Shown: positions 2,101 through 25,576 of the stretch, one piece after another
How positions within the stretch are numbered: position 1 is the stretch's first letter
Layout: the number at the start of each line of letters is the position of its first letter
Source of the DNA: a virus
DNA length: 25,576 nucleotides
Reading direction: 5' to 3' (one strand)
IMG/VR virus record: IMGVR_UViG_3300031974_004706
Location: 1-25,576 of that record
Position numbers and translations under genes: made by a program
Notes under the pieces: model-generated
The model's input: the letters and a program-made list of their open reading frames with translations, nothing else
Database searches by the model: none
Told to the model about the DNA's origin: nothing

Positions 2101-3812
2101 TACATTTTAAATCCGTTTCATGGAAGAATTTCCTATCCACAGGAAATGACAGTATTAAAATTGAGTTGAATAGATCTCCATCGACATTAATCGTAGGACA
2201 AAATGGTGCTGGTAAATCTACACTGTTAGATGCTTTATCCTTTGGTCTATTTGGTAAATCGCACAGAGATATTAAGAAAGATCAATTAGTTAATAGTATT
2301 AATAAGAAAGGAACTATTGTTGAAGTAGAGTTTAAAATAGGAGATTCAGATTTTAAAATTACAAGAGGTATCAAACCAAATAAGTTCGAAATTTATCAAA
2401 ATGGTAATATGATTAATCAAGCTTCAAATGCTAGAGATTATCAAAAATTCTTAGAACAGAACATTCTTAAACTAAATCATAAATCATTTCATCAAGTGGT
2501 TGTATTAGGTAGTAGTTCATTTATTCCATTTATGCAGCTTCCAGTTTGGTCAAGAAGAGGTGTTATCGAAGATTTATTAGATATTAATATTTTTTCTAAG
2601 ATGAATACATTACTTAGAGAAAGAAATGCTAACATAAAAGATGAGCTTACTGATATTAATCATCAAATTGATTTATATAAAACTAAAATAGATAGCCAAA
2701 CAAAATATATTAAAGATCTACAATCGATTAATAAAGATCTAGTTGAAACAAAGAAAGAAACTATTAAAGATCATGAAAAAGATATCAAATCTTTAATTGA
2801 AGAAACTTCAGATCTAAACGAAAATTTACAAAGTCATATCGATATTGAAACAAAAAAATCTGAAGATCTTAAAACTACGACTACGCAGTTAAAATCTTAT
2901 GATTTACAATTTACTGCTAAAATTAAAGATTTGGTTCAGCAATCTAAATTTTTCGAAGAAAATGATCAATGTCCAACATGTGATCAAGAAATAAGTGAAA
3001 ATATTAAAGAATCAAAAATTACAGCTATTAAAAAGGCTGCTAATGAAGTTCAACAGGGCATGCAAAAATTAAAAAAACAGGTTGATCAAAATTATGCAGA
3101 GGTTGAAGATTCAAAAAGTAAGATGACGCATTTATTAGAAAGACAAAGAAAAATTATTTCTAATAATGACAAAATATACTTAATTCAAAAAGATATTGAA
3201 AGTATTCAAAAAGAAATAAGTGGTTTATTACAATCTAGCGGAGATATCAAAACAGCTAAGAAAGAAATGGAATCACTTAGAAAATCAAAAGAAAATATTA
3301 CAGAAAAGAAACTAGAGTATGTAGAAGAAAGAACTTATAACGAAGTTATAGGGGAGATGCTGAAAGATACTGGTATTAAAACGAAAGTGATTAAACAATA
3401 TTTACCTGTTATGAATCGTCTTATTAACCAGTATCTCCAAGTATTAGATTTCTTTGTAGCATTCCACTTAGATGAAAACTTTAATGAAACTATTAGATCT
3501 AGACACAGAGATAGTTTTAATTATGCATCTTTCTCTGAAGGAGAAAAACAAAGGATTGACTTATCGCTTCTATTCACGTGGAGACAAATAGCTAAGATGA
3601 AAAATTCTGCAGCTACAAATCTTTTGGTTCTTGATGAAACGTTTGATTCCAGTTTAGATCATGATGGTATTGATAATTTAACAAAAATTCTAAATACACT
3701 TGAAGATGGAACAAACGTATTCATCATTTCACATAAAGGCGATATATTAGAAAATAAATTTAGATCAAAGATTGAGTTTATAAAAGATAGGAATTTTTCG
3801 AAAATTAAATGA
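2097..3812 (+). CDS. 46: Recombination endonuclease subunit gp46 (Rad50/SbcC-like ATPase)
   Basis: A 571-aa SMC-type ATPase partner of gp47. It has Walker A GQNGAGKST (residues 34-42), two long coiled-coil arms rich in Lys/Glu/Gln (about 170-420), a zinc hook CPTC with Cys292 and Cys295 between them, an ABC signature FSEGEKQR, and Walker B LLVLDETFDSSLD followed by the switch His (ISHKGD). The architecture and length fit T4 gp46 (560 aa). The start ATG overlaps the gene 47 stop. Its own stop overlaps the next gene by 4 bases. Confidence 0.94.
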   Translation: MIHFKSVSWKNFLSTGNDSIKIELNRSPSTLIVGQNGAGKSTLLDALSFGLFGKSHRDIKKDQLVNSINKKGTIVEVEFKIGDSDFKITRGIKPNKFEIYQNGNMINQASNARDYQKFLEQNILKLNHKSFHQVVVLGSSSFIPFMQLPVWSRRGVIEDLLDINIFSKMNTLLRERNANIKDELTDINHQIDLYKTKIDSQTKYIKDLQSINKDLVETKKETIKDHEKDIKSLIEETSDLNENLQSHIDIETKKSEDLKTTTTQLKSYDLQFTAKIKDLVQQSKFFEENDQCPTCDQEISENIKESKITAIKKAANEVQQGMQKLKKQVDQNYAEVEDSKSKMTHLLERQRKIISNNDKIYLIQKDIESIQKEISGLLQSSGDIKTAKKEMESLRKSKENITEKKLEYVEERTYNEVIGEMLKDTGIKTKVIKQYLPVMNRLINQYLQVLDFFVAFHLDENFNETIRSRHRDSFNYASFSEGEKQRIDLSLLFTWRQIAKMKNSAATNLLVLDETFDSSLDHDGIDNLTKILNTLEDGTNVFIISHKGDILENKFRSKIEFIKDRNFSKIK

Positions 3813-4393
3813 AGACAACGGCATTAGTATTAGGTAACGGTGAATCAAGAAAGGGTATAGATTTTAGATCCGAATATCCTGGAACTTTCGTTATCGGATG
3901 TAATGGCGCATATAAAGAATCTCCAGATGCTTTAGTTTGTACTGATACATATATGCAGCATATCATATATGAAACTGGATATTGTAAAGATCATTTTTGT
4001 TTATTTACAGAATGGGATCCAATTCCAAATTATGCGGTTGATGCAATAGCAGCTTCATTTAATAAACCTATTATTAGACACAATGTAGTTGATAGTGAAT
4101 CTGCTCAAGTTGCAGGAAGTGAGCATTATGTTTATGTTACTCATACACATCCTAAAGATATGGTTGAACCTATACCAGAAAAAACGATGTCTTCAGGGTC
4201 AAGAGCAATAGAAATAGCATGCCAAATGGGATTTTCTGATATCATATTATTGGGTTTCGATGGAATGGGCGCCACAAACATCTATCAACAAGATAAAGGC
4301 TATGAAAGATCTACTCCTCGAGCCGAATGGGTTGAAGAAAGAAATATCATCAAAAATAAGTTTCCAAATATAAATATTATTGAGGGGCTGTAG
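3809..4393 (+). CDS. Rossmann-like putative glycosyltransferase (GT42/DUF115-like)
   Basis: The 194-aa protein opens with a nucleotide-binding-type loop LVLGNGESRKGID (about 7-19), continues with IGCNGAYKESPDALVCTD, and has a second conserved-looking block MSSGSRAIEIACQMGFSDI followed by ILLGFDGMG (about 127-154). That order (GNGxS near the N-terminus, then SSG...A...A...G...I.L.G.D) is typical of the sialyltransferase GT42 and MptE/DUF115-like superfamily. The assignment is by motif only, so the donor and acceptor are unknown. It is coupled to gene 46 by ATGA. In a phage predicted to carry hydroxymethylcytosine, modification of DNA or of a surface glycan are both possible. Its last two sense codons and TAG stop lie inside tRNA-Ala. 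Confidence 0.45.
   Translation: MKTTALVLGNGESRKGIDFRSEYPGTFVIGCNGAYKESPDALVCTDTYMQHIIYETGYCKDHFCLFTEWDPIPNYAVDAIAASFNKPIIRHNVVDSESAQVAGSEHYVYVTHTHPKDMVEPIPEKTMSSGSRAIEIACQMGFSDIILLGFDGMGATNIYQQDKGYERSTPRAEWVEERNIIKNKFPNINIIEGL
4369..4376 (+). promoter_or_regulatory. Possible late promoter TATAAATA just upstream of tRNA-Ala
   Basis: A perfect TATAAATA octamer lies inside the 3' end of the preceding gene. With T4 late promoter geometry the start site would fall near 4382, two bases before tRNA-Ala. It also encodes part of a normal-looking protein end, so chance is not excluded in such AT-rich DNA. Confidence 0.3.
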
Positions 4394-12331: not shown

Positions 12332-14836
12332 ATGAAATTTTACACATCTGTTAGTCGTTACGGAAATAATCTACTTTACCGTGGTTACGACAATAACAAA
12401 AAAATTCAAAAACGAATAAAATACAAACCCACGTATTTTGTTTCTACAAATAAACCCACAAATTGGAAATCTCTTGATGGAGTTTCTGTAGCTCCTATTC
12501 AATTTGATTCTATGCGCGATGCGAAAGAATGGCTTCAAGTTAACAAACAAGTTGTTGGTAGACATATATACGGAAATGATAAACATATTCCAGCTTTCAT
12601 TAACGATGAATTTCCAGGTGATATCGAGTTTGATCGTAATCAAATTAATGTAACTACAATCGATATCGAAGTACAATCAGATGCTGGTTTCCCAGAACCA
12701 GAACAAGCAGCACACGAAATTACTGCAATTACAATTAAAAACAATATCGATAATACGTATTATGTTTGGGGTTGTAATGATTATGATGTAGAAAACGGTT
12801 ATATGCAAGACAATCGTGTGATCTATAAACAATGTAGTAATGAAGCTGAACTGCTTCTTGACTTTGTTTCACATTGGGCATTACCGTCAAATTGTCCAGA
12901 TGTTGTTACTGGTTGGAACTCAAGATTTTTTGATATACCTTACATTGTAAATCGTATATTCCGTATTCACGGTGAAGAAGTTGTAAAACGCTTATCTCCA
13001 TGGGGATTAATCGATCGAAGAGATGTTACTACAATGCAACGTAAACACATCGCATACGAAATTCAAGGTATCGCTCAAATGGATTATCTTGATCTATTCA
13101 AAAAGTTTGGTTACTCGTATGGTCCACAAGAAACATACAAACTAGATCATATTGCTCATGTTGTTCTCGGTGAACGTAAATTATCCTACGAAGAATTTGG
13201 AAATCTACATACACTATATAAACATGATTATCAAAAATTTATTGATTATAATATTAAAGACGTTGAATTAGTAGATCGTATTGAAGATAAACTAGGTTTG
13301 ATTACTCTAGCACTTACAATGGCATATCGTGGTGGTGTTAACTATGGCGATGTGATGGGTACAACTGCTATATGGGATGCAATCATATTTCGAAATCTAT
13401 ATGAAAACAATGTAATCGTTCCATTCGCAGAAGAAAAGTTTAAATCACCATATCCTGGTGGTTATGTAAAAGATCCTCATGTTGGTATGCATGATTGGGT
13501 TGTTTCTTTCGATTTGAACTCACTATATCCATCGATTATTATGCAATACAATATGTCACCTGAAACAATTATTGATGGTAAAGTTATTGCTCTTGATGTC
13601 GATAAGTGTATTCAAGGTGTAAGTGTAGATACAGATAACAAATGTGTTGCTGCATCAGGTCAATATTTTAAAACAACTGAAAAAGGTATTTTACCTAAGA
13701 TCATCGATCAGATGTACAGCGAACGTGTTATTATCAAAAAACAAATGCTTGCATCACAACAAGAACTACAAAAGGTAAATAAAAATGATAAACAAGAATT
13801 ATATCGAATTCAAAGAGATATCGCTATTGCAGAAAATCAACAGATGTCTATTAAAATTCTTCTTAATAGTCTTTATGGTGCTCTCGGCAACAAGTACTTC
13901 AGATTCTTCGATCAACGAATCGCAGAAGGTATTACACTTACAGGACAACTTACAATTCGATGGGCTGAAAAGGCAATCAATCAATACCTCAACAGTGTGC
14001 TTAAAACACAAAAAGACTACGTACTTGCTATCGATACCGACTCGGTGTATGTATGCTTAAATGATTTGGTTAAAGCAGTAAATCCTAAAAATCCACTCGA
14101 ATTTGTTAATACTGTTTGCGAAGAAAAGCTAGAACCAGTTCTCGAACAAAGTTACAAGAAACTTTTCGAAATGCTAGGTGGTATTGATAATCGAATGGTT
14201 ATGAAACGTGAAGCAATCGCAGATCGTGGTATTTGGACTGCCAAAAAACGTTATATTCTTAACGTGCACGATAACGAAGGTGTAAGATATGCAGAACCTA
14301 AACTAAAAATTATGGGTATCGAAGCAATTAAATCTTCAACACCTGCGCCATGTCGTGAAGCACTTAAAGAAATGTTCAAAGTAATTATCAGTGGATCAGA
14401 AGCAGATGTTCAACGTAATATCGAATCATTTAGAACCTACTTCAAAACACTTTCACCAGATCAAATTGCATTCCCTCGTGGAATTACAAATCTCACAAAG
14501 TTTCGCGATAAATCGACTATATATAAGAAAGGCACACCGATTCATGCAAGAGGTAGTTTGCTTTACAATAAATTATTGATGGATAAGTCGTTAACAAAAC
14601 AATACAACAAAATTCAAAACGGTGAAAAGATAAAGTTCATTTATCTACGTACGCCAAATAGCATCAAAGAAGATGTTATATCATTCCCAGATTATTTGCC
14701 AGAAGAATTTAGTTTACATCGATATATCGATTACGAAAAGCAATTTAGTAAAACGTTTCTCGATGTTATCGAACCTATTCTTTCAGCAGTAAATTGGAAT
14801 TCTAAGGAGATTGCTACGCTCGATGAATTCTTTTAA
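12332..14836 (+). CDS. 43: DNA polymerase gp43 (family B)
   Basis: The 834-aa replicative polymerase has the 3'-5' exonuclease motif TIDIEVQSD (Asp111, Glu113), further Exo blocks around VTGWNSRFFDIPYI and YNIKDVELVDRI, palm motif A SFDLNSLYPSI (Asp394), motif B KILLNSLYGALGN (Lys508) and motif C AIDTDSVYV (Asp568, Asp570). All catalytic residues that can be judged are present. It is slightly shorter than T4 gp43 (about 898 aa). It has its own promoter P4 and a leader of about 25 bases; in T4 this leader is the site of gp43 autoregulation. ATG 12332 follows GAGAG. Confidence 0.96.
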   Translation: MKFYTSVSRYGNNLLYRGYDNNKKIQKRIKYKPTYFVSTNKPTNWKSLDGVSVAPIQFDSMRDAKEWLQVNKQVVGRHIYGNDKHIPAFINDEFPGDIEFDRNQINVTTIDIEVQSDAGFPEPEQAAHEITAITIKNNIDNTYYVWGCNDYDVENGYMQDNRVIYKQCSNEAELLLDFVSHWALPSNCPDVVTGWNSRFFDIPYIVNRIFRIHGEEVVKRLSPWGLIDRRDVTTMQRKHIAYEIQGIAQMDYLDLFKKFGYSYGPQETYKLDHIAHVVLGERKLSYEEFGNLHTLYKHDYQKFIDYNIKDVELVDRIEDKLGLITLALTMAYRGGVNYGDVMGTTAIWDAIIFRNLYENNVIVPFAEEKFKSPYPGGYVKDPHVGMHDWVVSFDLNSLYPSIIMQYNMSPETIIDGKVIALDVDKCIQGVSVDTDNKCVAASGQYFKTTEKGILPKIIDQMYSERVIIKKQMLASQQELQKVNKNDKQELYRIQRDIAIAENQQMSIKILLNSLYGALGNKYFRFFDQRIAEGITLTGQLTIRWAEKAINQYLNSVLKTQKDYVLAIDTDSVYVCLNDLVKAVNPKNPLEFVNTVCEEKLEPVLEQSYKKLFEMLGGIDNRMVMKREAIADRGIWTAKKRYILNVHDNEGVRYAEPKLKIMGIEAIKSSTPAPCREALKEMFKVIISGSEADVQRNIESFRTYFKTLSPDQIAFPRGITNLTKFRDKSTIYKKGTPIHARGSLLYNKLLMDKSLTKQYNKIQNGEKIKFIYLRTPNSIKEDVISFPDYLPEEFSLHRYIDYEKQFSKTFLDVIEPILSAVNWNSKEIATLDEFF

Positions 14837-14893: not shown

Positions 14894-15166
14894 ATGAAAT
14901 TAGTAAGATTAACCTCAGGCGAGGAAATAATTGGTAAAGTTGAAGATTTAAGTAATGTCATCAAAATCAAAGATGGCTTTAATATGGTCGCTACAGAACC
15001 AGGTAAAATTGGATTTATTCCATTTATGGCTTATGCAAAAGACGAAGAATTCGTAATTGATAAAAGTCATGTAATGATGATATGTGATCCAGTTGATGAA
15101 TTAGTTGATCAAATCAGAACTATGACAAGTGGAATAGTTGTACCAGATAGTAAGGTGATTGGATAA
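14894..15166 (+). CDS. Sm/Hfq-like small protein
   Basis: The 90-aa protein opens with VRLTSGEEIIGKVEDLSNVIKI, an Sm1-like strand-turn-strand pattern, followed by GFNMVATEPGKIGFIPFMAY, a layout I associate with LSM-like proteins of marine phages. RNA binding is inference from fold resemblance. It is the first gene under P5, with GGAG at 14883-14886, and overlaps the MazG-like gene by TAATG. Confidence 0.55.
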   Translation: MKLVRLTSGEEIIGKVEDLSNVIKIKDGFNMVATEPGKIGFIPFMAYAKDEEFVIDKSHVMMICDPVDELVDQIRTMTSGIVVPDSKVIG

Positions 15167-15576
15167 TGAGTAAAGATTGGGTAAAAGATATTGAAGAAAT
15201 GCAAACCAAATACAAAACTAGAGATTGGGTTTGGGATAATCGTAAATCCCCAGAAAAGCTTAAAAAGTTTTTAGAGTTTAGAGTTGATTTCTTAAAAGAA
15301 GAATTGATGGAAACTCAAGCTGCAGTAACTCACAATGATCCAGAAGAAATAGTAGATGGATTAATCGATTTGTGTGTTGTTGCTATTGGTACACTCGATG
15401 CATTTGGAGTTGATCCATACAAAGCATGGGATGAAGTGCTAAAAGCAAACATGCAAAAAGAAGTTGGTGTAAAGCCAACAAGGCCAAATCCGCTTGGAGT
15501 TCCAGATCTAGTAAAACCAGAAGATTGGCAAGCACCGTCGCACGAAGGAAATCATGGTAAGTTTAACAATATTTGA
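15166..15576 (+). CDS. MazG-like nucleotide pyrophosphohydrolase
   Basis: The 136-aa all-alpha protein has the metal-binding set Glu45, Glu46, Glu49 (EELMETQ) and Glu61-x-x-Asp64 (EIVDGLIDL), the MazG-superfamily EExxE...ExxD pattern. It is likely to hydrolyse a nucleoside triphosphate to the monophosphate. In a phage with hydroxymethylcytosine a dCTPase is needed (gp56 in T4), and this protein is one candidate; that is inference. The C-terminal 35 residues are Pro-rich and outside the domain. It overlaps the next gene by 23 bases. Confidence 0.75.
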   Translation: MSKDWVKDIEEMQTKYKTRDWVWDNRKSPEKLKKFLEFRVDFLKEELMETQAAVTHNDPEEIVDGLIDLCVVAIGTLDAFGVDPYKAWDEVLKANMQKEVGVKPTRPNPLGVPDLVKPEDWQAPSHEGNHGKFNNI

Positions 15577-17669: not shown

Positions 17670-18165
17670 TTATAACATAAAACCTGGAGATACATTCACT
17701 AACAAAGATATTGATCAAATGAAATTGATCGATCATTTACAAGAAGAATATAAAGAAGGGTATTCAAGTTATGATAACACCGAATATGGACTAATAGCAG
17801 AACATTATCTAATAGAACATAAAAATTATACTAATGATCCAAGAGATTATCAAGATGTTTTTAATCCGCAAAACGTTTCTATAGAAATCAAATCATATTC
17901 TGAACATTTTCGTTCTGATCCAGATACGTATAAACAAAACGTTTTGCATAATTATTCTAAAGCAAATGATGGAAGATCGTCGCTGTGGGAAAGAAAGGTA
18001 ATGTGGAACAAAGAAGTCGCTGATCATGTAATTTTTTTCAAAAGAACTGGAAATATAAAGAGAGGAGAAGATTACACAATAGCATATATGTGTGATGAAA
18101 TATTTGAATGGGATAGTAAAAAAGGTCGATATATTAGTGTACAATCTCTTGAAACTGTGGTATAA
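17659..18165 (+). CDS. Unknown protein, possible PD-(D/E)XK nuclease fold
   Basis: The 168-aa protein has YGLIAEHYLIEH, then QDVFNPQNVSIEIKSYSEH, where an Asp followed by Glu-Ile-Lys resembles a D...ExK catalytic motif, and later DHVIFFKRTG and YTIAYMCDEIFEW strands. This is only pattern-level support. It follows an SNase-like gene and ends the P5 unit. Its last codons GTG GTA TAA are part of the TGGTATAAT -10 of promoter P6, so the promoter supplies its stop codon. Confidence 0.45.
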   Translation: MKVNYNIKPGDTFTNKDIDQMKLIDHLQEEYKEGYSSYDNTEYGLIAEHYLIEHKNYTNDPRDYQDVFNPQNVSIEIKSYSEHFRSDPDTYKQNVLHNYSKANDGRSSLWERKVMWNKEVADHVIFFKRTGNIKRGEDYTIAYMCDEIFEWDSKKGRYISVQSLETVV

Positions 18166-18166
18166 T
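18138..18166 (+). promoter_or_regulatory. Promoter P6 for the dNTP-diphosphohydrolase/42/cd unit
   Basis: TGTACA at 18138-18143, 17-base spacer, TGG, TATAAT at 18161-18166. The whole promoter lies in the end of the preceding coding region, whose TAA stop is inside the -10. Confidence 0.87.
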
Positions 18167-18197: not shown

Positions 18198-18503
18198 ATG
18201 AAATATGATGATGACAAACCACCTCTAGGTTTAATCCCACCCGAAACTCTCATAGAAATATCAAAAGTCTTTGGTTTCGGTGCAGCAAAGTATGGTATCA
18301 ACAATTGGCGTGACGATGGTAACACCACAAGTTGGATTCGTACATACTCATCTATTCAAAGACACTTAAACGCATGGCATGCTGGTGAAGATATTGATCC
18401 AGAATCTGGCTTAAGTCATCTTGCTCATGCAGCAACACAAATTATGATTCTCATGATTCACGAAAACGAACATCCAGAATCAGATGATAGGTACAAAAAA
18501 TGA
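18198..18503 (+). CDS. dATP/dGTP diphosphohydrolase-like protein (DUF5664)
   Basis: The 101-aa protein begins KYDDDKPPLGLIPPETLIEI, continues GFGAAKYGINNWRDDG and then SSIQRHLNAWHAGEDIDPES with SHLAHAATQIMILM. This is the DUF5664 / dGTP_diPhyd_N pattern, a MazG-related helical fold with Asp/His/Glu metal ligands. Likely role: hydrolysis of a purine dNTP to balance or exclude nucleotides. It directly precedes gp42 (ATGA overlap), which suggests work on the phage's nucleotide pool. Substrate is not shown. Confidence 0.75.
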   Translation: MKYDDDKPPLGLIPPETLIEISKVFGFGAAKYGINNWRDDGNTTSWIRTYSSIQRHLNAWHAGEDIDPESGLSHLAHAATQIMILMIHENEHPESDDRYKK

Positions 18504-19180
18504 ATATAGCTTTAGAAATCGATCAAGTAAGAAGTTATTTTATAAACGAACTTCGTAATGAAAAATTTACCATTGATAAAACTGGTGCAAAAACAATCGA
18601 AATGATTGGTGCCAACTTTTATGCTGATGAACCAGCAATCTTTGGTAAACCTAATCAAGATTATATCGAAGCCGAATTAAGGTGGTATGATTCTAAATCT
18701 ACTAACATTTATGATATTTACGGTGAAGATCGTGATCCACCTCAAGCATGGTTATATTCAGCAAATGATCATGGTGAAATCAATTCGAATTATGGTCATC
18801 TTATTTGGTCTAAAAAGTATTTTAAACAATATGATAAAGTACTAAACGAATTAATGAAAAATCCAGATTCTCGTAGAGCGTGTATGGTTTATAATCGTCC
18901 AAGTATTTGGCATGAATATAAAGAAAACGGTAAAAACGATTTTATTTGCACAAATGCTGTTACATATTATATTCGCGATAACGAATTACATGCAGTTGTT
19001 CAAATGCGATCAAACGATGTAATCTTTGGTTATCGTAATGATTATGCATGGCAAAAACATGTATTTGATTTACTAAGAGATGATCTATATTTTAATGGTA
19101 TGCATTTAGAAGAAGGTAATATTCATTGGCAAGTACAAAACTTGCACGTATATGAGAGGCATTTCGATCTTGTCAAATAA
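18500..19180 (+). CDS. 42: dCMP hydroxymethylase gp42
   Basis: The 226-aa thymidylate-synthase-family enzyme matches T4 gp42: FTIDKTGAKTIEMIGANFYA (23-42), GEINSNYGHLIWS (92-104), NPDSRRACMVYNRPS (121-135), the catalytic Cys150 in FICTNAV, and MRSNDVIFGYRNDYAWQKHV. Asp181 in RNDYAW equals T4 Asp179, the residue that replaces the thymidylate synthase Asn and gives cytosine specificity. The enzyme adds hydroxymethyl from methylene-tetrahydrofolate to dCMP, so the phage DNA probably carries 5-hydroxymethylcytosine. It stops right after ERHFDLVK, lacking the last 20 or so residues of T4 gp42. Confidence 0.93.
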   Translation: MNIALEIDQVRSYFINELRNEKFTIDKTGAKTIEMIGANFYADEPAIFGKPNQDYIEAELRWYDSKSTNIYDIYGEDRDPPQAWLYSANDHGEINSNYGHLIWSKKYFKQYDKVLNELMKNPDSRRACMVYNRPSIWHEYKENGKNDFICTNAVTYYIRDNELHAVVQMRSNDVIFGYRNDYAWQKHVFDLLRDDLYFNGMHLEEGNIHWQVQNLHVYERHFDLVK

Positions 19181-19622
19181 TTGGGACAAAAAATATATTC
19201 GATTAGCTCGAGAAATATCGAGTTGGTCAAAAGATCCAAGCAAGCAAATTGGTGCAGTAGCTATAGGAGAAAAGGGTCAAGTACTTGCACAAGGATATAA
19301 TGGATTTCCGAGAGGAATAAAAGATACAGATGAAAGATTAAATCATCGACAAACAAAATATAAGTATGTAGTTCACGCAGAAATGAATTGCATATATAAC
19401 GCTACATACAACGGTGTATCATTAAATGGAAGTACAATGTACATTTATGGTTTACCAGTTTGTAGTGAATGTGCTAAAGGGTTGATACAAGTAGGAATCA
19501 AAAGAGTAGTATCAACTCCAATCACCGATGCAACACCTGAACAATGGGTTGAGTCAACGAAGCTAACGAAGGAGATATTCGAAGAAGCTGGCGTAAAATA
19601 CGATTTTATAAACACAATTTAA
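19170..19622 (+). CDS. cd: dCMP deaminase
   Basis: A zinc-dependent deoxycytidylate deaminase: HAEMN (His69, Ala70, Glu71 in my numbering) and PVCSEC (Cys98, Cys101) supply zinc ligands and the catalytic Glu. It converts dCMP to dUMP for dTMP synthesis. I choose TTG 19170, giving MSNNWDKKYIRLA, because GAGAGG at 19155-19159 is correctly spaced and the family starts there; ATG 19152 in frame would add six residues but lacks a ribosome binding site. It overlaps gene 42 by 11 bases and competes with gp42 for dCMP, as in T4. Confidence 0.92.
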   Translation: MSNNWDKKYIRLAREISSWSKDPSKQIGAVAIGEKGQVLAQGYNGFPRGIKDTDERLNHRQTKYKYVVHAEMNCIYNATYNGVSLNGSTMYIYGLPVCSECAKGLIQVGIKRVVSTPITDATPEQWVESTKLTKEIFEEAGVKYDFINTI

Positions 19623-19627
19623 AATTT

Positions 19628-19704
19628 GCGCCTTTAGCTCAATTGGATAGAGCAACAGCCTTCTAAGCTGTAGGTTTCAGGTTCGAGTCCTGAAAGGCGC
19701 GCCA
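19628..19704 (+). tRNA. tRNA-Arg (anticodon TCT)
   Basis: Acceptor GCGCCTT pairs with AAGGCGC, D arm GCTC/GAGC, anticodon stem ACAGC/GCTGT with loop CTTCTAA (TCT), T arm TCAGG TTCGAGT CCTGA, discriminator G and encoded CCA; 77 bases. It reads AGA, the dominant Arg codon in this window. Confidence 0.96.
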
Positions 19705-19708
19705 AATT

Positions 19709-19795
19709 GCCTCGGTGGTGAAATTGGTAAACACAAGGGACTTAAAATCCCTCGCTCGAAAGAGCTTGTCGGTTCAAGTCCGACTCGAGGCACCA
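19709..19795 (+). tRNA. tRNA-Leu (anticodon TAA)
   Basis: Acceptor GCCTCGG pairs with TCGAGGC-type 3' strand (one G-T pair), anticodon stem AGGGA/TCCCT with loop CTTAAAA (TAA), a long class II variable arm CGCTCGAAAGAGCTTG, T arm GTCGG/CCGAC, discriminator A and encoded CCA; 87 bases. It lies 4 bases after tRNA-Arg and reads TTA, frequent in the phage genes. Confidence 0.96.
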
Positions 19796-19812
19796 AAAAA
19801 AGGAAAAGGAAA

Positions 19813-20001
19813 ATGATGTACATAGATTACAAATTTGCAATAAATGAAAATGGTTTGGTAATGTTAGATACAGAGCCAGATGAAAAGATTGATATTAATA
19901 AAATTCCACTCAATGAAGGAGATCATTTTGTCTTACGCGTTGGTAAGGAAGGTAATATCATGTTTGTGAAACAAGAGGTTAGTGAAACTCATGACTGGTA
20001 A
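19813..20001 (+). CDS. Small protein (62 aa), unknown
   Basis: It follows tRNA-Leu by 17 bases with AGGAAAAGGAAA before an ATG-ATG pair. The product is acidic, with short beta-like stretches (YKFAINENGLVML, DHFVLRVGKEGNIMFV). No recognised family. It overlaps the next gene. Confidence 0.6.
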   Translation: MMYIDYKFAINENGLVMLDTEPDEKIDINKIPLNEGDHFVLRVGKEGNIMFVKQEVSETHDW

Positions 20002-20173
20002 ATGGCACGGTGGTAAAGGAAGCAAATACCGTAACATCAAAAATAAAGAACAATTCGATTCTGAATGGGATCGAATTTTTGCACGTAAAAAAACACCTAA
20101 ACATGCAATAACAAAAACTCATGTAGATAAAACTAAATATGATCGTAAAAGGATTAAACTAGAAGATGAGTAA
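19991..20173 (+). CDS. Small basic phage protein (60 aa)
   Basis: Starting at ATG 19991 it reads TGKWHGGKGSKYRNIKNKEQ, then FDSEWDRIFARKK and a Lys/Arg-rich tail. The opening GGKGS...R and a following WDRIF are typical of a widespread, uncharacterised small T4-like phage protein. A GTG at 19982, 3 bases after AGAGG, would add three residues; the ATG better matches the family as I remember it. Likely nucleic-acid binding by charge alone. It overlaps the next gene by 8 bases. Confidence 0.65.
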   Translation: MTGKWHGGKGSKYRNIKNKEQFDSEWDRIFARKKTPKHAITKTHVDKTKYDRKRIKLEDE

Positions 20174-20456
20174 ATTTACAAAGGAAGAATTGGAAAACAG
20201 TAAAAGAATTTATAAATCAGCAACTCCAAAATACACAGTAGATTGGTATTGTAAATGGATTGCATCAGCATTTGTTTTAATGGCCATGTCTATTAGAGGT
20301 GTTGAAGGTATGGAAATTTATGATTTATATCTATCGATTGTAGGTATTTTTTTATGGTTGATAGTTTCCGTGATATGGAAAGATAGGGCATTGATTCTAC
20401 TAAATGGTGTAGGTTTAATGTTTTTAATTAATAATTTAGCAGCAACAATAACATGA
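20166..20456 (+). CDS. Small integral membrane protein, DUF6552-like
   Basis: The 96-aa protein has a charged N-terminus (about 1-28) and three hydrophobic segments: about 28-43 (WYCKWIASAFVLMAMS), about 53-70 (LYLSIVGIFLWLIVSVIW) and about 74-93 (ALILLNGVGLMFLI). The pattern R...W.DRA-like KDRALILLNG resembles DUF6552 proteins of alphaproteobacteria and their phages. No function known. It ends in an ATGA overlap with the next gene. Confidence 0.65.
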   Translation: MSKFTKEELENSKRIYKSATPKYTVDWYCKWIASAFVLMAMSIRGVEGMEIYDLYLSIVGIFLWLIVSVIWKDRALILLNGVGLMFLINNLAATIT

Positions 20457-21604
20457 TAAAAACAAAATATTATTATGATTTTTTGAAATATTTCGAATTA
20501 GCAAAAGATCAACAAGAAAAATGCAACGTACCAAATTTTATGATTCATGCTGAAAGTGGTATGAACGATGATTTGATGGAGAATGTAGAACTATACGATG
20601 TAGTTGAAAGAAAATATGCAGGATTCTCTCAAATCGTAAACGATATATTTTATGGTTGGACAGATAAACATCCATATTGGGAAAGAATGAAAGCAGGTAA
20701 AGCTACTGCTCAAAGAGAATTAGTAGCTAAAAACTGGACAGGTAAAATTCATTCCTTAGATGCATGGTTATATCTTTTTATATTACATAGAGTAACGGGT
20801 TCAGCAATTAATTATGGCACAAAACCTTCTGGTTACCATAACACACTTCTATTTAAATTGCATTTAGCCGAAAATATTGAAGATATGAAAAAGATTATTA
20901 AGGCTGAAGGTAAATTAGGAAAACCATTTTATACTTCTATTGGATATCAATTTCCAGCATTTCCAAAACCTACAAGCGAATACAAAAAAGGTGGTGATTA
21001 CTATCTATGTGAATATGCTCCAAGGTTGGCCAAAGAGCTATCACATTTTTTAGCTATTCCTGGTAAAAAAGATTTAAGAGAAATTGGACAATTCATGTTA
21101 GATTGGAATGTAAAAAATGGATTAAGACAATATAGATTCCAATATGCAGCAGTTGTAGCTGATATCGCAGATTGGTTTCCGCACTATGTAAATAAAGAAA
21201 GTATGTTTTATTATGGAACAAATGCAGTAGAATGTATTTCGTATCTTGCAGAAAACGATAAGAAATTAAAGAAAGAAGACTTTCTTGATGAAGTAATGAG
21301 AAGCATTTATGAAGATACTGGAAGTGTACCATATAATGCTGAAGATGTGTGTTGTGATTATATTAGATGGGTTGAAAACTATATTAAACCTGGAGATGAT
21401 TACGCACATTTAGATTATGATAAAGTGTGGTCAAGTAGCGATATAAAAGATCATCCACGAGGAAGACAAAAAGCAATGCTTGATCTTGGATTAGTAGAAA
21501 CATTTAATGGCATTACTGCACATCCATCTGATTTAAAAGTACTTAACGATAATAATTTAAGTATACCTGAATATCAAGATATGATAAAATATTACAAATT
21601 ATGA
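20453..21604 (+). CDS. Putative DNA-base hypermodification protein A
   Basis: The 383-aa, mostly helical protein is not one I can assign with confidence. It has LFILHRVTGSAINYGTKPSG (about 107-126), RQYRFQYAAVVADIADWFP (about 222-240) and VNKESMFYYGTNAVECISYL (about 242-261). The last block can be aligned with VDPESVLFGGTGHFDGMHQI in the next gene, so the two are probably related. The helical, GT/GP-turn style resembles the amino acid:DNA transferase (aGPT-Pplase) proteins of hypermodified phages, enzymes with a DNA-glycosylase-like fold. Context supports this: it is transcribed with gp42 and followed by a PLP enzyme. Family call is inference. Confidence 0.4.
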   Translation: MIKTKYYYDFLKYFELAKDQQEKCNVPNFMIHAESGMNDDLMENVELYDVVERKYAGFSQIVNDIFYGWTDKHPYWERMKAGKATAQRELVAKNWTGKIHSLDAWLYLFILHRVTGSAINYGTKPSGYHNTLLFKLHLAENIEDMKKIIKAEGKLGKPFYTSIGYQFPAFPKPTSEYKKGGDYYLCEYAPRLAKELSHFLAIPGKKDLREIGQFMLDWNVKNGLRQYRFQYAAVVADIADWFPHYVNKESMFYYGTNAVECISYLAENDKKLKKEDFLDEVMRSIYEDTGSVPYNAEDVCCDYIRWVENYIKPGDDYAHLDYDKVWSSSDIKDHPRGRQKAMLDLGLVETFNGITAHPSDLKVLNDNNLSIPEYQDMIKYYKL

Positions 21605-22560
21605 GCTTATTTCCAAACGAACACAACATCGTATATCCAAATACTACGATGGTTGAAATGAAAAAGAAAAAACCAACTGATACGTGGATGAAAGATTATA
21701 CTTTAGATCAGCGTAAAGAAAAGTTTTTTGAGTTTTGTAATAAGTTCGATTTAAGATTAGATGATTTATTAAAAGATGATTTTCAAATATTCTCTCATAG
21801 GTTACATTGGCACGAACATCCTTATGTAGATTTTTTTAAAGGAAAGGATGTTTCTAATTTCGAAAAGATACTATATACTATTACATATTCTTTTTCTAAT
21901 GAGCACTGGGGAACATTCAAAGCCTTATATGATGATGGTGAAAATGGATTGAGATCTAGATTTGAAAGACATCGTCACGCAAGATCTGATTTATTTCAAA
22001 TCTATTATCCAAAAGGAACAAAAGTTTCTGAATGGTTAATCACTGCACCAAGAAAATGTGCTGAAGATATGGCTAAGGTGTTAGATGAAAGAAATAAACC
22101 ATGGACTATGATGGAACTTGCTAAAAGATTTGAAAAGTATTTTAAAGAAGAACAAGGATTCAGATCACCATTATATCCATGTAAAAACTTTGCACGATAT
22201 ATGGCAATGACATGGCCAGATCAGGTTGATCCTGAATCTGTGTTATTTGGAGGAACTGGTCATTTCGATGGAATGCATCAAATATTTGGTGGGCAAAATT
22301 TAAATGGAAAAGTTAAATACGAAATTAATGAGGATGGGGAATTCATTCCTACTAATAAACACGGTGAATTGTGGTTAGAACAAATGTATGAATTATCAAA
22401 TGATCCTCGTAATCCAATGCATACACAAAAGCTTTTAAACGTAGAAGATAAAACGTGTTTCTTTTATAAGCATATTGCTATTTCTCAAGGAGAAAAAAGA
22501 CCAACAAAAAGAATTCCAAGAGATTGGATATTTCCAAGGGAGTTTAAACTTGAGTCATAA
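21601..22560 (+). CDS. Putative DNA-base hypermodification protein B
   Basis: The 319-aa protein starts in an ATGA overlap with the previous gene. It has FSHRLHWHEHPYVDFFKG (about 64-81), a central RFERHRHARSDLFQIYYPKG, PLYPCKNFARYMAMTWPDQ and VDPESVLFGGTGHFDGMHQI followed by FGGQNL. The WP..V[DN].ES...GT block is shared with the neighbour at 20453. The FGGTGxFDGMxxIFGG turn resembles the Gly-rich hairpin of glycosylase-fold amino acid:DNA transferases. It may form a complex with its neighbour. I am moderately sure of the relation between the two and less sure of the biochemical family. Confidence 0.4.
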   Translation: MSLFPNEHNIVYPNTTMVEMKKKKPTDTWMKDYTLDQRKEKFFEFCNKFDLRLDDLLKDDFQIFSHRLHWHEHPYVDFFKGKDVSNFEKILYTITYSFSNEHWGTFKALYDDGENGLRSRFERHRHARSDLFQIYYPKGTKVSEWLITAPRKCAEDMAKVLDERNKPWTMMELAKRFEKYFKEEQGFRSPLYPCKNFARYMAMTWPDQVDPESVLFGGTGHFDGMHQIFGGQNLNGKVKYEINEDGEFIPTNKHGELWLEQMYELSNDPRNPMHTQKLLNVEDKTCFFYKHIAISQGEKRPTKRIPRDWIFPREFKLES

Positions 22561-23428
22561 TAAACACGTAGTTGATGGATTTAATAGAGATATTGGTTTA
22601 ATGCAACCAGATGAAGCTATTGAATATTACTTAGAATTGGCCGAAGGATGGGAAGATCCAAATCCGCCAATTGTTTTAACAGAACACGATGGAGTAACAG
22701 TTGTTAGGGACGACCTTATTACAGGAACAAAGGTAAGAGGCGCAGATTTACTTATGTCAAAAATAAAGCAAGATACTGTTGCTTATGTTCAACCTCGAAC
22801 AGGTTTGGCAGGTGTAAGTATTTTAGAAGTTGCTAAAAGACATAATAAAAAAGTTAGATTATATATGCCATCAAGTAAAATGATTTCACATCATCAAGCT
22901 TGTTGTATTGAAAGAGGAGCAGAAGTAAGTTTCCATAGAATAGCAGCGATGCCAAATTTAAATGCAATTGCAGCTAAAGAATCAAAAGAAAATGGACATT
23001 ATTTTATTCCTCTTGGATTAAAACACGAATTAGTAACTGCAGGTTTAGTTAAAGTTGCGAGATCAATTCCTGAACCAGATGAAGTGTATACAGTTGTATC
23101 AACAGCAGTTTTATCGCGCGCATTACAAATCGCATGGCCAAATGCTAAATTTACTGCAGTGGCTGTGGCAAGAAATATGAAAGGTGGTGAATTAGGAAGA
23201 GCAAAAGTTATTAGCGCACCTGAACCTTTTACAAAAAGTATTAAAGAAGAAGAGATGCCACCTTTTCCAAGCATAGGAACATATGATGCAAAAGCATGGA
23301 GATATATTCCAAAAAATAGTGGAAAGAATATATTATTTTGGAATGTAGGAGCTGAACCAATATTACAAGATGAAAGTTTATATGAAACAGTAGATAGTTA
23401 TAAAGATTGGGAGAAAAACGAAGAATGA
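22550..23428 (+). CDS. PLP-dependent enzyme, tryptophan-synthase-beta/ACC-deaminase fold
   Basis: The 292-aa protein has VVRDDLITGTKVRGADLLMS, where the Lys of GTKVRG (about residue 63) fits the PLP Schiff-base Lys of fold type II; then YVQPRTGLAGVSILEVAKRH, VRLYMPSSKMISHHQACCIE and RGAEV, the usual substrate-loop and cofactor-domain order, and VYTVVSTAVLSRALQIAWP. Enzymes of this fold remove or exchange groups on amino acids. In hypermodified phages PLP enzymes process amino acids attached to the base; that role is inferred from context. Start TTG 22550 has AAGGGAG at 22535-22541 with ideal spacing; an ATG upstream at 22475 would bury it in the previous gene. Confidence 0.75.
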   Translation: MSHNKHVVDGFNRDIGLMQPDEAIEYYLELAEGWEDPNPPIVLTEHDGVTVVRDDLITGTKVRGADLLMSKIKQDTVAYVQPRTGLAGVSILEVAKRHNKKVRLYMPSSKMISHHQACCIERGAEVSFHRIAAMPNLNAIAAKESKENGHYFIPLGLKHELVTAGLVKVARSIPEPDEVYTVVSTAVLSRALQIAWPNAKFTAVAVARNMKGGELGRAKVISAPEPFTKSIKEEEMPPFPSIGTYDAKAWRYIPKNSGKNILFWNVGAEPILQDESLYETVDSYKDWEKNEE

Positions 23429-24378
23429 TTACAGGAACATTTAATAAAATACCAAGAAAAAAGAATAGTCATGGTTATGGTTGGGCTAGAACATGGTCAG
23501 AAAATTTAGGGGTTGGAATCAACCACGAAGGTTATTATGTTGATGTTTTATATTTAGATCATGGGGTAAATTTTGGAGGATCACTTAATCTATTTTCTGG
23601 GTTTAATGAAGAACTTGAAACAAGAATAAATAATTTCTTAGAAGCTAAAGTGATCTATTCTCTCGATATCGATATGCCTGATTATGGAGCGATGTTAAAA
23701 GCGAGAAAGGATGTACAAGATAAATTATGGTGTGATAAAGTTTCAGCTAAATGCGCAACAGTAAAAACTCTAAAATCAACAGATATCTCTGATATGAATT
23801 GGTTAACTATTGGAGATTCTCACACTGCAGCATATTCGAAAGAAAATTCAATGGTAATTAAAACCGATGGATTAACACTTAACGGTCAAATTAAAACTGA
23901 TTTTGAATATGTAACAAATCATATTAAAGAATGCAATCCAAAGGGAGTTACTATGTCTTTTGGTAATATTGATATTAGGCATCACATTATTAGATTATCT
24001 GTAGATAGCATGCCAATGTTAGTTGCGTGGAAAGAATATGGAGATATGTTAGAAAGGAATGGAATAAAGGTAGAATATTCTACTCCATGGCCAATCGAAC
24101 ATGAAGAAAGAAGATTACCTAAAACTGGATACTACAAAGGTCAACCATTTTGGGGATCAAGAAGCCAAAGAATTGCGGCTTTAAAAACCTGGATTATGCA
24201 CATGGATAATTTAGGAATGAATAGAATTAAATATCCAGAAGAGTGGATATTAATGGATGGAGAAAAGTTTGCTAAAGACAAAATGGAAAGCGTTTCGTCA
24301 GTGCATCTATCACCAGAAGTATATCGAAGAAAAAATTGGGGAATTAACTGTGTACAATTGTCCGATTTTATGGTATAA
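23425..24378 (+). CDS. SGNH-hydrolase-like protein
   Basis: Starting at ATG 23425 (ATGA overlap with the PLP gene) the product is 317 aa. It has an N-terminal domain of about 120 residues with Gly/Tyr/Trp-rich opening, then LTIGDSHTAAYSKE with GDSH (130-133), MSFGNIDIRHHI with Gly180-Asn181, and SVSSVHLSPEVYRR near the end. These are blocks I (GDS), III (GxN) and V (with a His) of the SGNH fold, so esterase or acyltransferase chemistry is possible. The exact substrate is unknown. Its stop TAA is inside the -10 of promoter P7. Confidence 0.6.
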   Translation: MITGTFNKIPRKKNSHGYGWARTWSENLGVGINHEGYYVDVLYLDHGVNFGGSLNLFSGFNEELETRINNFLEAKVIYSLDIDMPDYGAMLKARKDVQDKLWCDKVSAKCATVKTLKSTDISDMNWLTIGDSHTAAYSKENSMVIKTDGLTLNGQIKTDFEYVTNHIKECNPKGVTMSFGNIDIRHHIIRLSVDSMPMLVAWKEYGDMLERNGIKVEYSTPWPIEHEERRLPKTGYYKGQPFWGSRSQRIAALKTWIMHMDNLGMNRIKYPEEWILMDGEKFAKDKMESVSSVHLSPEVYRRKNWGINCVQLSDFMV

Positions 24379-24379
24379 T
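24351..24379 (+). promoter_or_regulatory. Promoter P7 for bS21 and uvsX
   Basis: TGTACA at 24351-24356, 17-base spacer, TGG, TATAAT at 24374-24379. It lies wholly in the end of the SGNH-like gene, which ends ATG GTA TAA within the -10. Confidence 0.88.
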
Positions 24380-24405: not shown

Positions 24406-24681
24406 ATGCCAAGTATAAATTTAAATAAACAACCACCAAATAGGTGGAAAAAACGAAAAAATCAAAAACCTCAGGGGCCAATGCCTTTTGATGTGGCTTT
24501 GAGAAAGTTTAAAAAAGCTGTCGAAGCAGCAGGTATTATTCAAGAAGTTCGTAAAAGAGAATTCTATGAAAAACCAACTGCGAAGCGAAAAAGAAAAAAA
24601 GCAGAAGCTGTCGCTCGATGGAAAAAGAAAGAAAGAATGCTTAAACTAAACGGCTATCCAGAGTCGAGGAGAAGAAGATAA
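24406..24681 (+). CDS. rpsU: Ribosomal protein bS21 homologue
   Basis: The 91-aa basic protein has the bS21 core [19 protein letters not shown], then [20 protein letters not shown] and [13 protein letters not shown], essentially colinear with bacterial S21. It has an N-terminal addition of about 26 residues (rich in Lys/Asn/Pro) compared with cellular S21. Phage-encoded bS21, known in marine phages including a Pelagibacter T4-like phage, is thought to enter host 30S subunits and favour phage mRNA; the replacement is inferred, not shown here. ATG follows AGAGGAAAACT, directly under P7, and TAATG couples it to uvsX. Confidence 0.93.
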
Positions 24682-25576
24682 TGTCAGTAATGGATAAATT
24701 AAAAAAGAATTCGAAAATTAAATTTACGAATACACTAGATAAATCAGAATTTTTTACAGAAAAGGATATGGTATCAACTGATGTACCTATGGTTAATGTT
24801 GCTTTATCTGGCGATATCGATGGAGGCCTTACATCAGGATTAACTGTATTAGCAGGTCCAAGTAAACATTTCAAAACATCATTTGCTTTATTAATGGCAG
24901 GTGCATATATGAAAGAACACGAAGATGCTGTATTATTATTTTATGATTCAGAATTTGGTTCACCACAATCGTATTTTGAAGCATTTGGTATTGATACATC
25001 TCGTGTATTACATACACCAATTGTCGATGTAGAACAACTCAAATTCGATCTTGTAAGTCAATTAGATAATATCGATAGAGGAGATAAAGTTATTATTGTT
25101 ATCGATTCTATTGGTAATCTTGCGTCTAAGAAAGAATTAGAAGATGCACTCAATGAAAAATCAGTTGCTGATATGTCAAGGGCTAAAGCACTTAAAGGTT
25201 TATTCAGAATGGTTACACCTTATTTAACTATGAAAAATATCCCATTACTTGCTGTAAACCATACATATCAAGAAATTGGTTTATTCCCTAAAGCAATTGT
25301 TTCAGGTGGTACAGGTATCTATTACTCAGCAGATAACATTTGGATTCTTGGTAGACAGCAAGTGAAAAAAGGAACAGAAATTAAAGGATATAATTTTGTT
25401 ATTAATGTAGAAAAATCAAGATTTGTAAAAGAGAAATCTAAAGTACCTATCGGTGTTTCTTGGGAAGGTGGTATTGAACCATATTCTGGATTACTTGATG
25501 TTGCTATGGCTGGTGGTTATGTTGTTAAGCCAACTATGGGTTGGTATGCTCGAGTTAACAAAGAAACTGGAGAAGT
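24681..25576 (+). CDS. uvsX: RecA-like recombinase UvsX (partial, 3' end missing)
   Basis: The first 298 codons are present, cut by the window end. It has the UvsX-type Walker A LAGPSKHFKTS (57-67), in which Phe replaces the usual Gly, as in T4; a glutamate-containing block LLFYDSEFGSPQSYFEAFGI; Walker B VIIVIDSIGNLAS; and LLAVNHTYQEIG. It forms filaments on ssDNA for homologous recombination and recombination-dependent replication with gp46/47. Start ATG overlaps the bS21 stop. Confidence 0.95.
   Translation, partial: MSVMDKLKKNSKIKFTNTLDKSEFFTEKDMVSTDVPMVNVALSGDIDGGLTSGLTVLAGPSKHFKTSFALLMAGAYMKEHEDAVLLFYDSEFGSPQSYFEAFGIDTSRVLHTPIVDVEQLKFDLVSQLDNIDRGDKVIIVIDSIGNLASKKELEDALNEKSVADMSRAKALKGLFRMVTPYLTMKNIPLLAVNHTYQEIGLFPKAIVSGGTGIYYSADNIWILGRQQVKKGTEIKGYNFVINVEKSRFVKEKSKVPIGVSWEGGIEPYSGLLDVAMAGGYVVKPTMGWYARVNKETGE

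Follow-up and report, generated by a model that had tools for sequence, protein, structure and literature searches.

Gene content and layout of the locus

The DNA analysed here, referred to below as the window, is the 25,576-nucleotide (25.6 kb) IMG/VR virus record IMGVR_UViG_3300031974_004706. It covers a T4-like phage replication module, with genes for SbcC/D-like nuclease subunits (gp46/47 type), the clamp, the clamp loader, DNA polymerase, and UvsX. The subject of this analysis is a candidate DNA base modification cassette in that module, located downstream of gp42, a dCMP hydroxymethylase gene. It consists of the genes of two related proteins, here called A and B, a pyridoxal phosphate (PLP) enzyme of fold type II, and a two-part protein called D. 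All coordinates refer to the plus strand unless stated otherwise.

A (20453..21604) and D (23425..24378) are core genes, as is that of the PLP enzyme (22550..23428), and B (21601..22560) is an optional second protein. The four genes are tightly packed: ATGA overlaps are found at 20453, 21601, and 23425 (the starts of A, B, and D), and the PLP gene probably starts with the TTG at 22550, behind an AAGGGAG and within the end of B. The start of D is most likely 23425. The whole unit encodes, in order, a diphosphohydrolase domain protein, gp42, dCMP deaminase, two tRNAs, three small proteins, A, B, the PLP enzyme, and D. It is preceded by an exact copy of the motif TGTACA-N14-TGGTATAAT (18138..18166), and its end is marked by another exact copy (24351..24379), the promoter of the following unit (S21, uvsX). 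The initial annotation had described a single promoter-driven unit ending in four overlapping genes, and the exact promoter copies and gene overlaps bear this out. The gene order it gave holds for the genes it named, but the deaminase and A are not adjacent: in between are the genes of two tRNAs (19628-19795) and of three small proteins.

The motif itself is the phage's own promoter and splits the window into transcription units. There are 7 exact copies in the window, and allowing as many as three mismatches raises the number to 23 sites, compared with 8.0 +/- 2.9 in shuffled sequences; none of the 100 shuffles reached 23. Seven exact members of the promoter family and one with a single mismatch lie at 234 (minus strand), 297, 4502, 6747, 12274, 14845, 18138, and 24351.

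Homology and predicted structure of the encoded proteins

The gp42 protein (18500..19180) is a member of the thymidylate-synthase family (phrog_160, E 3.7e-49). In the PDB its match to the T4 dCMP hydroxymethylase has an E-value of 3.4e-72, whereas most thymidylate synthases reach only about 1e-5, and it is ~52% identical to T4-type gp42 over 98-100% of the length. At position 181, where the E. coli thymidylate synthase has Asn177, it has Asp. The Asn177-equivalent residue has been described as the dUMP/dCMP switch, and as mostly Asp in modified-cytosine contigs (PMC8670742). Judged by its sequence gp42 is therefore a dCMP-type hydroxymethylase. The same Asp was present in each of the 42 gp42 proteins that make up the non-redundant set found close to the cassette, and in the gp42-type proteins of two members of a second phage lineage (G034 and G036, see below), while the thymidylate synthases of the Aeromonas phage 44RR and phiAS4 records, used as controls, carry Asn. 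No dUMP-type (Asn) hydroxymethylase was seen near the cassette, every cassette-linked enzyme being Asp-type. In addition, ThyX follows gp41 in many of the T4-like loci that are fully covered; as this enzyme makes dTMP in these relatives, gp42 is not needed for thymidylate.

The genes flanking gp42 are a dATP/dGTP diphosphohydrolase N-terminal domain protein (18198..18503; PF18909, E 4.7e-30; phrog_801, 1e-38) and dCMP deaminase (19152..19622; PF00383, E 5.7e-19; phrog_174, 1.4e-42). All three genes had been named in the initial annotation, including the cytosine-type Asp181 of gp42, and the searches agree. Upstream of the unit there is a MazG/PRA-PH-like nucleotide pyrophosphohydrolase (15166..15576; PF01503, 9.9e-12), a conserved neighbour in T4-like relatives, which may possibly act as a dCTPase that clears unmodified dCTP. 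In one relative (L112:1444-1854) and about 25 others, a gene resembling the uracil-DNA-glycosylase superfamily (PF03167, 7e-5, just under the cut-off) is located between the deaminase and A.

Relatives of A and B were found in IMG/VR (65 for A and >150 for B), and none were found in INPHARED, which covers cultured phages. AlphaFold models built from alignments of the IMG/VR relatives were confident, with a predicted local distance difference test (pLDDT) score of 91 for A and 90 for B. Foldseek searches of BFVD gave, for each of the two, a different protein with the name amino acid:DNA transferase domain-containing, at 3.4e-41 and 62% identity for A and at 1.6e-30 and 53% identity for B. Both also matched an aGPT-pyrophosphorylase (aGPT-Pplase1 in the case of A) and the helical-domain proteins of 5-hydroxymethyldeoxyuridine (5-hmdU) DNA kinases from phages such as PhiW-14 and phiRSL1, with A additionally matching that of SP10. 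The figures of these reference matches were modest in E-value (0.004-0.15), with probabilities mostly 0.97-1.00 (0.98-1.00 for A) and template modelling (TM) scores of 0.29-0.56. A fold search of the PDB with A gave nothing below an E-value of 1. The two proteins are related to each other (profile-profile P 3e-4), and a C-terminal E-x3-C motif (E297/C301 in A, E282/C286 in B) aligns with both the amino acid:DNA transferases and the helical domain. From the models, A and B are assigned to the fold that amino acid:DNA transferases, 5-hmdU kinase helical domains, and aGPT-Pplase proteins share as one superfamily. They had previously been annotated as two related putative base-modifying proteins, a description that both their kinship and their predicted DNA-modification fold support. 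Structure prediction, proposed then as a check, places both large proteins with the amino acid:DNA transferases and the 5-hmdU DNA kinase helical domains.

The PLP protein was assigned to phrog_7093 (E 4.8e-35), the family to which gp52 of phage M6 also belongs (2.2e-159), and the two proteins match each other in BLASTP (7e-8). Together with a match to PF00291 (fold type II; 2.7e-6, under the curated cut-off) this substantiates its earlier labelling as a fold-type-II enzyme. The protein is also weakly similar to cysteine synthases. Lys53 is invariant in the alignments and, by analogy with fold-type-II enzymes, would be the active-site lysine. The neighbours of gp52 in M6, a Pseudomonas phage, are the amino acid:DNA transferase gp51 on one side and a radical S-adenosylmethionine (radical-SAM) protein on the other, with the 5-hmdU DNA kinase and the helical domain next; gp52 is thought to trim or rearrange the amino acid attached to thymidine. 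Independent evidence tying this PLP branch to DNA base chemistry comes from Erythrobacter phage ZS04, which encodes a fusion of a PLP homologue with an N6/N4 methylase-like domain, and from Microcystis phage Mae-JY30, in which a homologue follows an N6/N4 methylase-like gene.

D consists of two parts. The first ~100 residues show homology to T4 beta-glucosyltransferase: when a profile of 36 D proteins was compared with eight T4-type beta-glucosyltransferases using hhalign, the probability was 95, P was 3.4e-8, and the score was 65.5, against at most 25.7 in 40 column-shuffled controls. In Pfam, PF09198 was weakly matched by 9 of the 36 D proteins (best 0.0017, below the cut-off). Past residue ~115 no alignment to beta-glucosyltransferase was found, so that the UDP-glucose-binding C-terminal half was not detected in D. 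The T4 enzyme glucosylates hydroxymethylcytosine (hmC) in DNA, and D therefore ties the cassette to hmC and not to hydroxymethyluracil. The C-terminal half of D has SGNH-like motifs (GDSH, GxIDxRxH, and SVH), of which GDSH and His294 are invariant. These blocks deviate from the usual pattern, with GN/SID replacing GxND and the usual Asp three residues before His absent, and a GDSL Pfam match was obtained in 5 of the 36 proteins (0.0038 at best). The label SGNH-like is thus one of motifs. The initial annotation of D as an SGNH-like protein has that basis for the C-terminal half and did not include the beta-glucosyltransferase-like N-terminal half.

Two Aeromonas phages, both with gp42-type genes, encode D in a different setting. 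In 44RR it is fused to a domain weakly matching the 5-hmdU kinase helical family (0.0036, below the cut-off); this fusion, ORF233c of phage 44RR2.8t (L001:6998-9382), has a cultured T4-like carrier and offers a practical laboratory entry to D function. In phiAS4, D lies beside a UDP-galactopyranose mutase and one further gene (L002:3772-5951). These neighbours were considered as A/B-like proteins and rejected, one of them being the mutase. Similar-looking genes stand beside the cassette in another record (G034:72122-74399) and, with the phiAS4 mutase, hint at a galactofuranosyl-type hmC in some phages.

Genomic position and distribution of the cassette

In T4 the gene order is 43 - imm.1 - imm - 42 - b-gt - segA - uvsX - 40 - 41, and in the window it is 43 - ... 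- 42 - deaminase - A - B - PLP - D - S21 - uvsX. Where T4 has its hmC glucosyltransferase, between 42 and uvsX, the window thus has the cassette. The synteny markers are the gp43 DNA polymerase on the left (12332..14836; phrog_262, E 0) and the UvsX recombinase on the right (24681..25576; phrog_97, 2.6e-87), the latter cut at the window end.

The set of three to four genes is carried by many uncultured, mostly aquatic T4 relatives. Overall, the cassette genes are linked in >100 contigs from two phage lineages, with neighbours mostly overlapping or adjoining. In all 37 T4-like loci with full coverage of the region (a few being two cuts of one contig), gp42 is located upstream, and in each it is of the Asp type. 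The co-occurrence of the cassette genes with gp42, which the initial annotation had proposed to check, thus extends to every locus of this kind. In several contigs, 58 to 113 kb long, A, PLP, and D are present and B is missing altogether, which makes A-PLP-D the core and B optional; B as an essential part was rejected on the same contigs. B was also found without the other cassette genes: in a group of phages (L089-L096) it stands beside a small protein with no A, PLP, or D nearby, and in one of these, G026, an Asp-type gp42 is encoded elsewhere.

In the second lineage the order is D-A-(B)-(LOG)-PLP and the cassette adjoins polymerase and ribonucleotide reductase genes. The LOG/lysine-decarboxylase-like (nucleosidase-type) gene is inside the cassette in some members (L129:9026-9700, L070:9200-9868) and near gp42 in the 256 kb record G034 (167550-168215); its product may clear unmodified or modified dCMP. 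Only three members of this lineage were found to have gp42: in L135 it is close to the cassette, and in G034 (by the LOG gene) and G036 it lies elsewhere. A TET/JBP dioxygenase was considered as another source of hmC and rejected, as none was present in 17 records. In the 150 kb record G030 no thymidylate-synthase-family gene was found even at E <= 10.

Proposed function and competing explanations

Taken together, A-(B)-PLP-D is probably a cytosine hypermodification cassette, which would add an amino-acid-type group to hmC in DNA and replace the T4 glucosyltransferase. 5-Hydroxymethyl-dCMP is the established product of gp42-family enzymes and, once polymerised, appears in phage DNA as hmC. In the window, gp42 would supply this nucleotide and replication would place hmC in the phage DNA. 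D may then recognise hmC with the half that resembles beta-glucosyltransferase, and the SGNH-like half of D may prepare or esterify the hydroxymethyl group. A, with B where present, would use the 5-methylene carbon as the attachment point for an amino acid or amine, and the PLP enzyme would trim or rearrange the attached amino acid in the manner thought for M6 gp52. These steps would be expected to yield an aminoalkyl-type derivative of hmC, which would block host nucleases. The initial annotation had suggested that amino-acid-transferase-like proteins make an undescribed hmC derivative here. The predicted structures and the co-occurrence with gp42 support that suggestion, and the beta-glucosyltransferase-like half of D and the b-gt slot of the cassette add to the case for hmC.

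However, several results weigh against this interpretation. Sequence searches of Pfam, PHROG, and PDB with A and B gave no match of note, and PF18724 and PF18723 were not among the matches (E <= 1) of 54 A and 41 B proteins. Comparison of the A and B profiles with those of the M6 amino acid:DNA transferase and helical domain was not significant, so the link of A and B to these families is one of fold and a single motif, and the two proteins were classed with them by fold but not counted in the curated transferase family. The 5-hmdU DNA kinase (PF18748) was found over the cut-off in 0 of 34 long contigs. The activation step of the thymidine systems is therefore missing or different here, and activation probably differs from those systems. 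Lastly, gp42 was not seen near the cassette in most second-lineage contigs, nor anywhere in records of 123, 150, and 165 kb; as these records may be incomplete, its absence neither refutes nor confirms the hmC reading. A specific kinase-free route, in which D acylates hmC, A swaps the acyl group for an amino acid, and the PLP enzyme yields an aminoalkyl base, is a tentative proposal and rather unlikely in this exact form.

Instead of an amino acid, the modification could be a sugar or an acyl group, with D, as a remodelled beta-glucosyltransferase or an acyltransferase, doing the main chemistry and A, B, and PLP supplying or editing an amino group on the sugar. Such a role would suit the beta-glucosyltransferase-like half of D and its position next to UDP-galactopyranose mutase in phiAS4, as well as two extra genes in G034, by inspection sugar mutase- and glycosyltransferase-like, located between PLP and the downstream gene. 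However, D does not align to the UDP-sugar half of beta-glucosyltransferase, the window unit has no sugar gene, and A and B match DNA-modifying transferases and not sugar enzymes, which leaves this explanation unlikely.

It is also improbable that the substrate is hydroxymethyluracil or thymidine, with gp42 and its Asp being incidental. The closest characterised families do act on 5-hmdU (PMC6449724), the unit encodes a dCMP deaminase, and gp42 is often not seen in the second lineage. Against this, the dCMP-type Asp is invariant in the 42 cassette gp42 proteins while the 44RR and phiAS4 thymidylate synthases have Asn, no Asn-type hydroxymethylase was seen near the cassette, and most T4-like loci with full coverage also encode ThyX. 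A metabolic or host-takeover operon (for amino acid, tRNA, or nucleotide metabolism) near gp42 by chance would fit the weak cysteine synthase similarity of the PLP protein and the tRNA genes within the same promoter-defined unit, but is very improbable given the linkage across >100 contigs in two lineages, the DNA-modification folds of A and B, and the N-terminal half of D.

Known hmC derivatives include glucosyl, arabinosyl, and carbamoyl forms, and amino-acid-bearing thymidines are also established. To our knowledge, the characterised amino-acid hypermodifications with this transferase fold are all built on hydroxymethyluracil, and no transferase-fold amino-acid route on hmC was found in the literature searched. 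A close parallel in gene content is the thymidine hypermodification pathway of M6 (gp51-gp55), with its adjacent amino acid:DNA transferase, fold-type-II PLP enzyme of the same PHROG, and helical-domain protein. However, the M6 pathway begins with 5-hydroxymethyluracil and includes a P-loop DNA kinase as well as a radical-SAM gene, whereas the window unit has a dCMP-type hydroxymethylase and D, with no PF18748 kinase found and no radical-SAM gene in the unit. hmC glucosylation in T4 shares with it gp42, the 42-uvsX slot, and the N-terminal half of beta-glucosyltransferase; in place of the UDP-glucose half the cassette has an SGNH-like half and three non-sugar enzymes.

Two other cytosine systems are comparable. 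The 5cmC system, with a 5-hydroxymethylcytosine carbamoyltransferase, likewise makes an hmC derivative, and its gene adjoins a thymidylate-synthase-family hydroxymethylase with deaminase and MazG-like neighbours (PMC8670742). It differs in relying on one carbamoyltransferase, and no such enzyme was noticed in the window unit, with no search aimed at it in relatives. A 2025 paper reported phage DNA in which cytosine bears glycine by way of a carboxymethyl handle (PMC12783734). This CmoA/CmoX/CmoY system also places an amino acid on a modified cytosine, but works through carboxy-SAM and an ATP-dependent amide ligase and not through hmC and a transferase of the A/B fold. The earlier statement that known amino-acid additions are built on hydroxymethyluracil consequently holds for the transferase-fold ones and not for carboxymethylcytosine-glycine.

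If the amino-acid reading is correct, the cassette would stand for a new class of DNA base spread among uncultured aquatic T4-like phages, would add a new means of evading restriction and CRISPR nucleases, and would provide enzymes acting on hmC, a base also used in vertebrate epigenetics. Should the acyl-activation route be true, a new activation chemistry for DNA would accompany the new base. The gene set makes the hmC question directly testable.

The window has some further features. The two tRNA genes of the unit, detected by ARAGORN, are tRNA-Arg (tct; 19628..19704) and tRNA-Leu (taa; 19709..19795). One of the small proteins before A belongs to DUF6552 (20166..20456; PF20189, E 1.2e-18) and was found only in the closer relatives of the window. 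A protein at 3809-4390 has weak matches to sialyltransferase CST-I (0.0018) and to MptE-like proteins (0.00032), both below the cut-off. Between the cassette and uvsX, a ribosomal protein S21 homologue (24406-24681) is present in the window and its close relatives.

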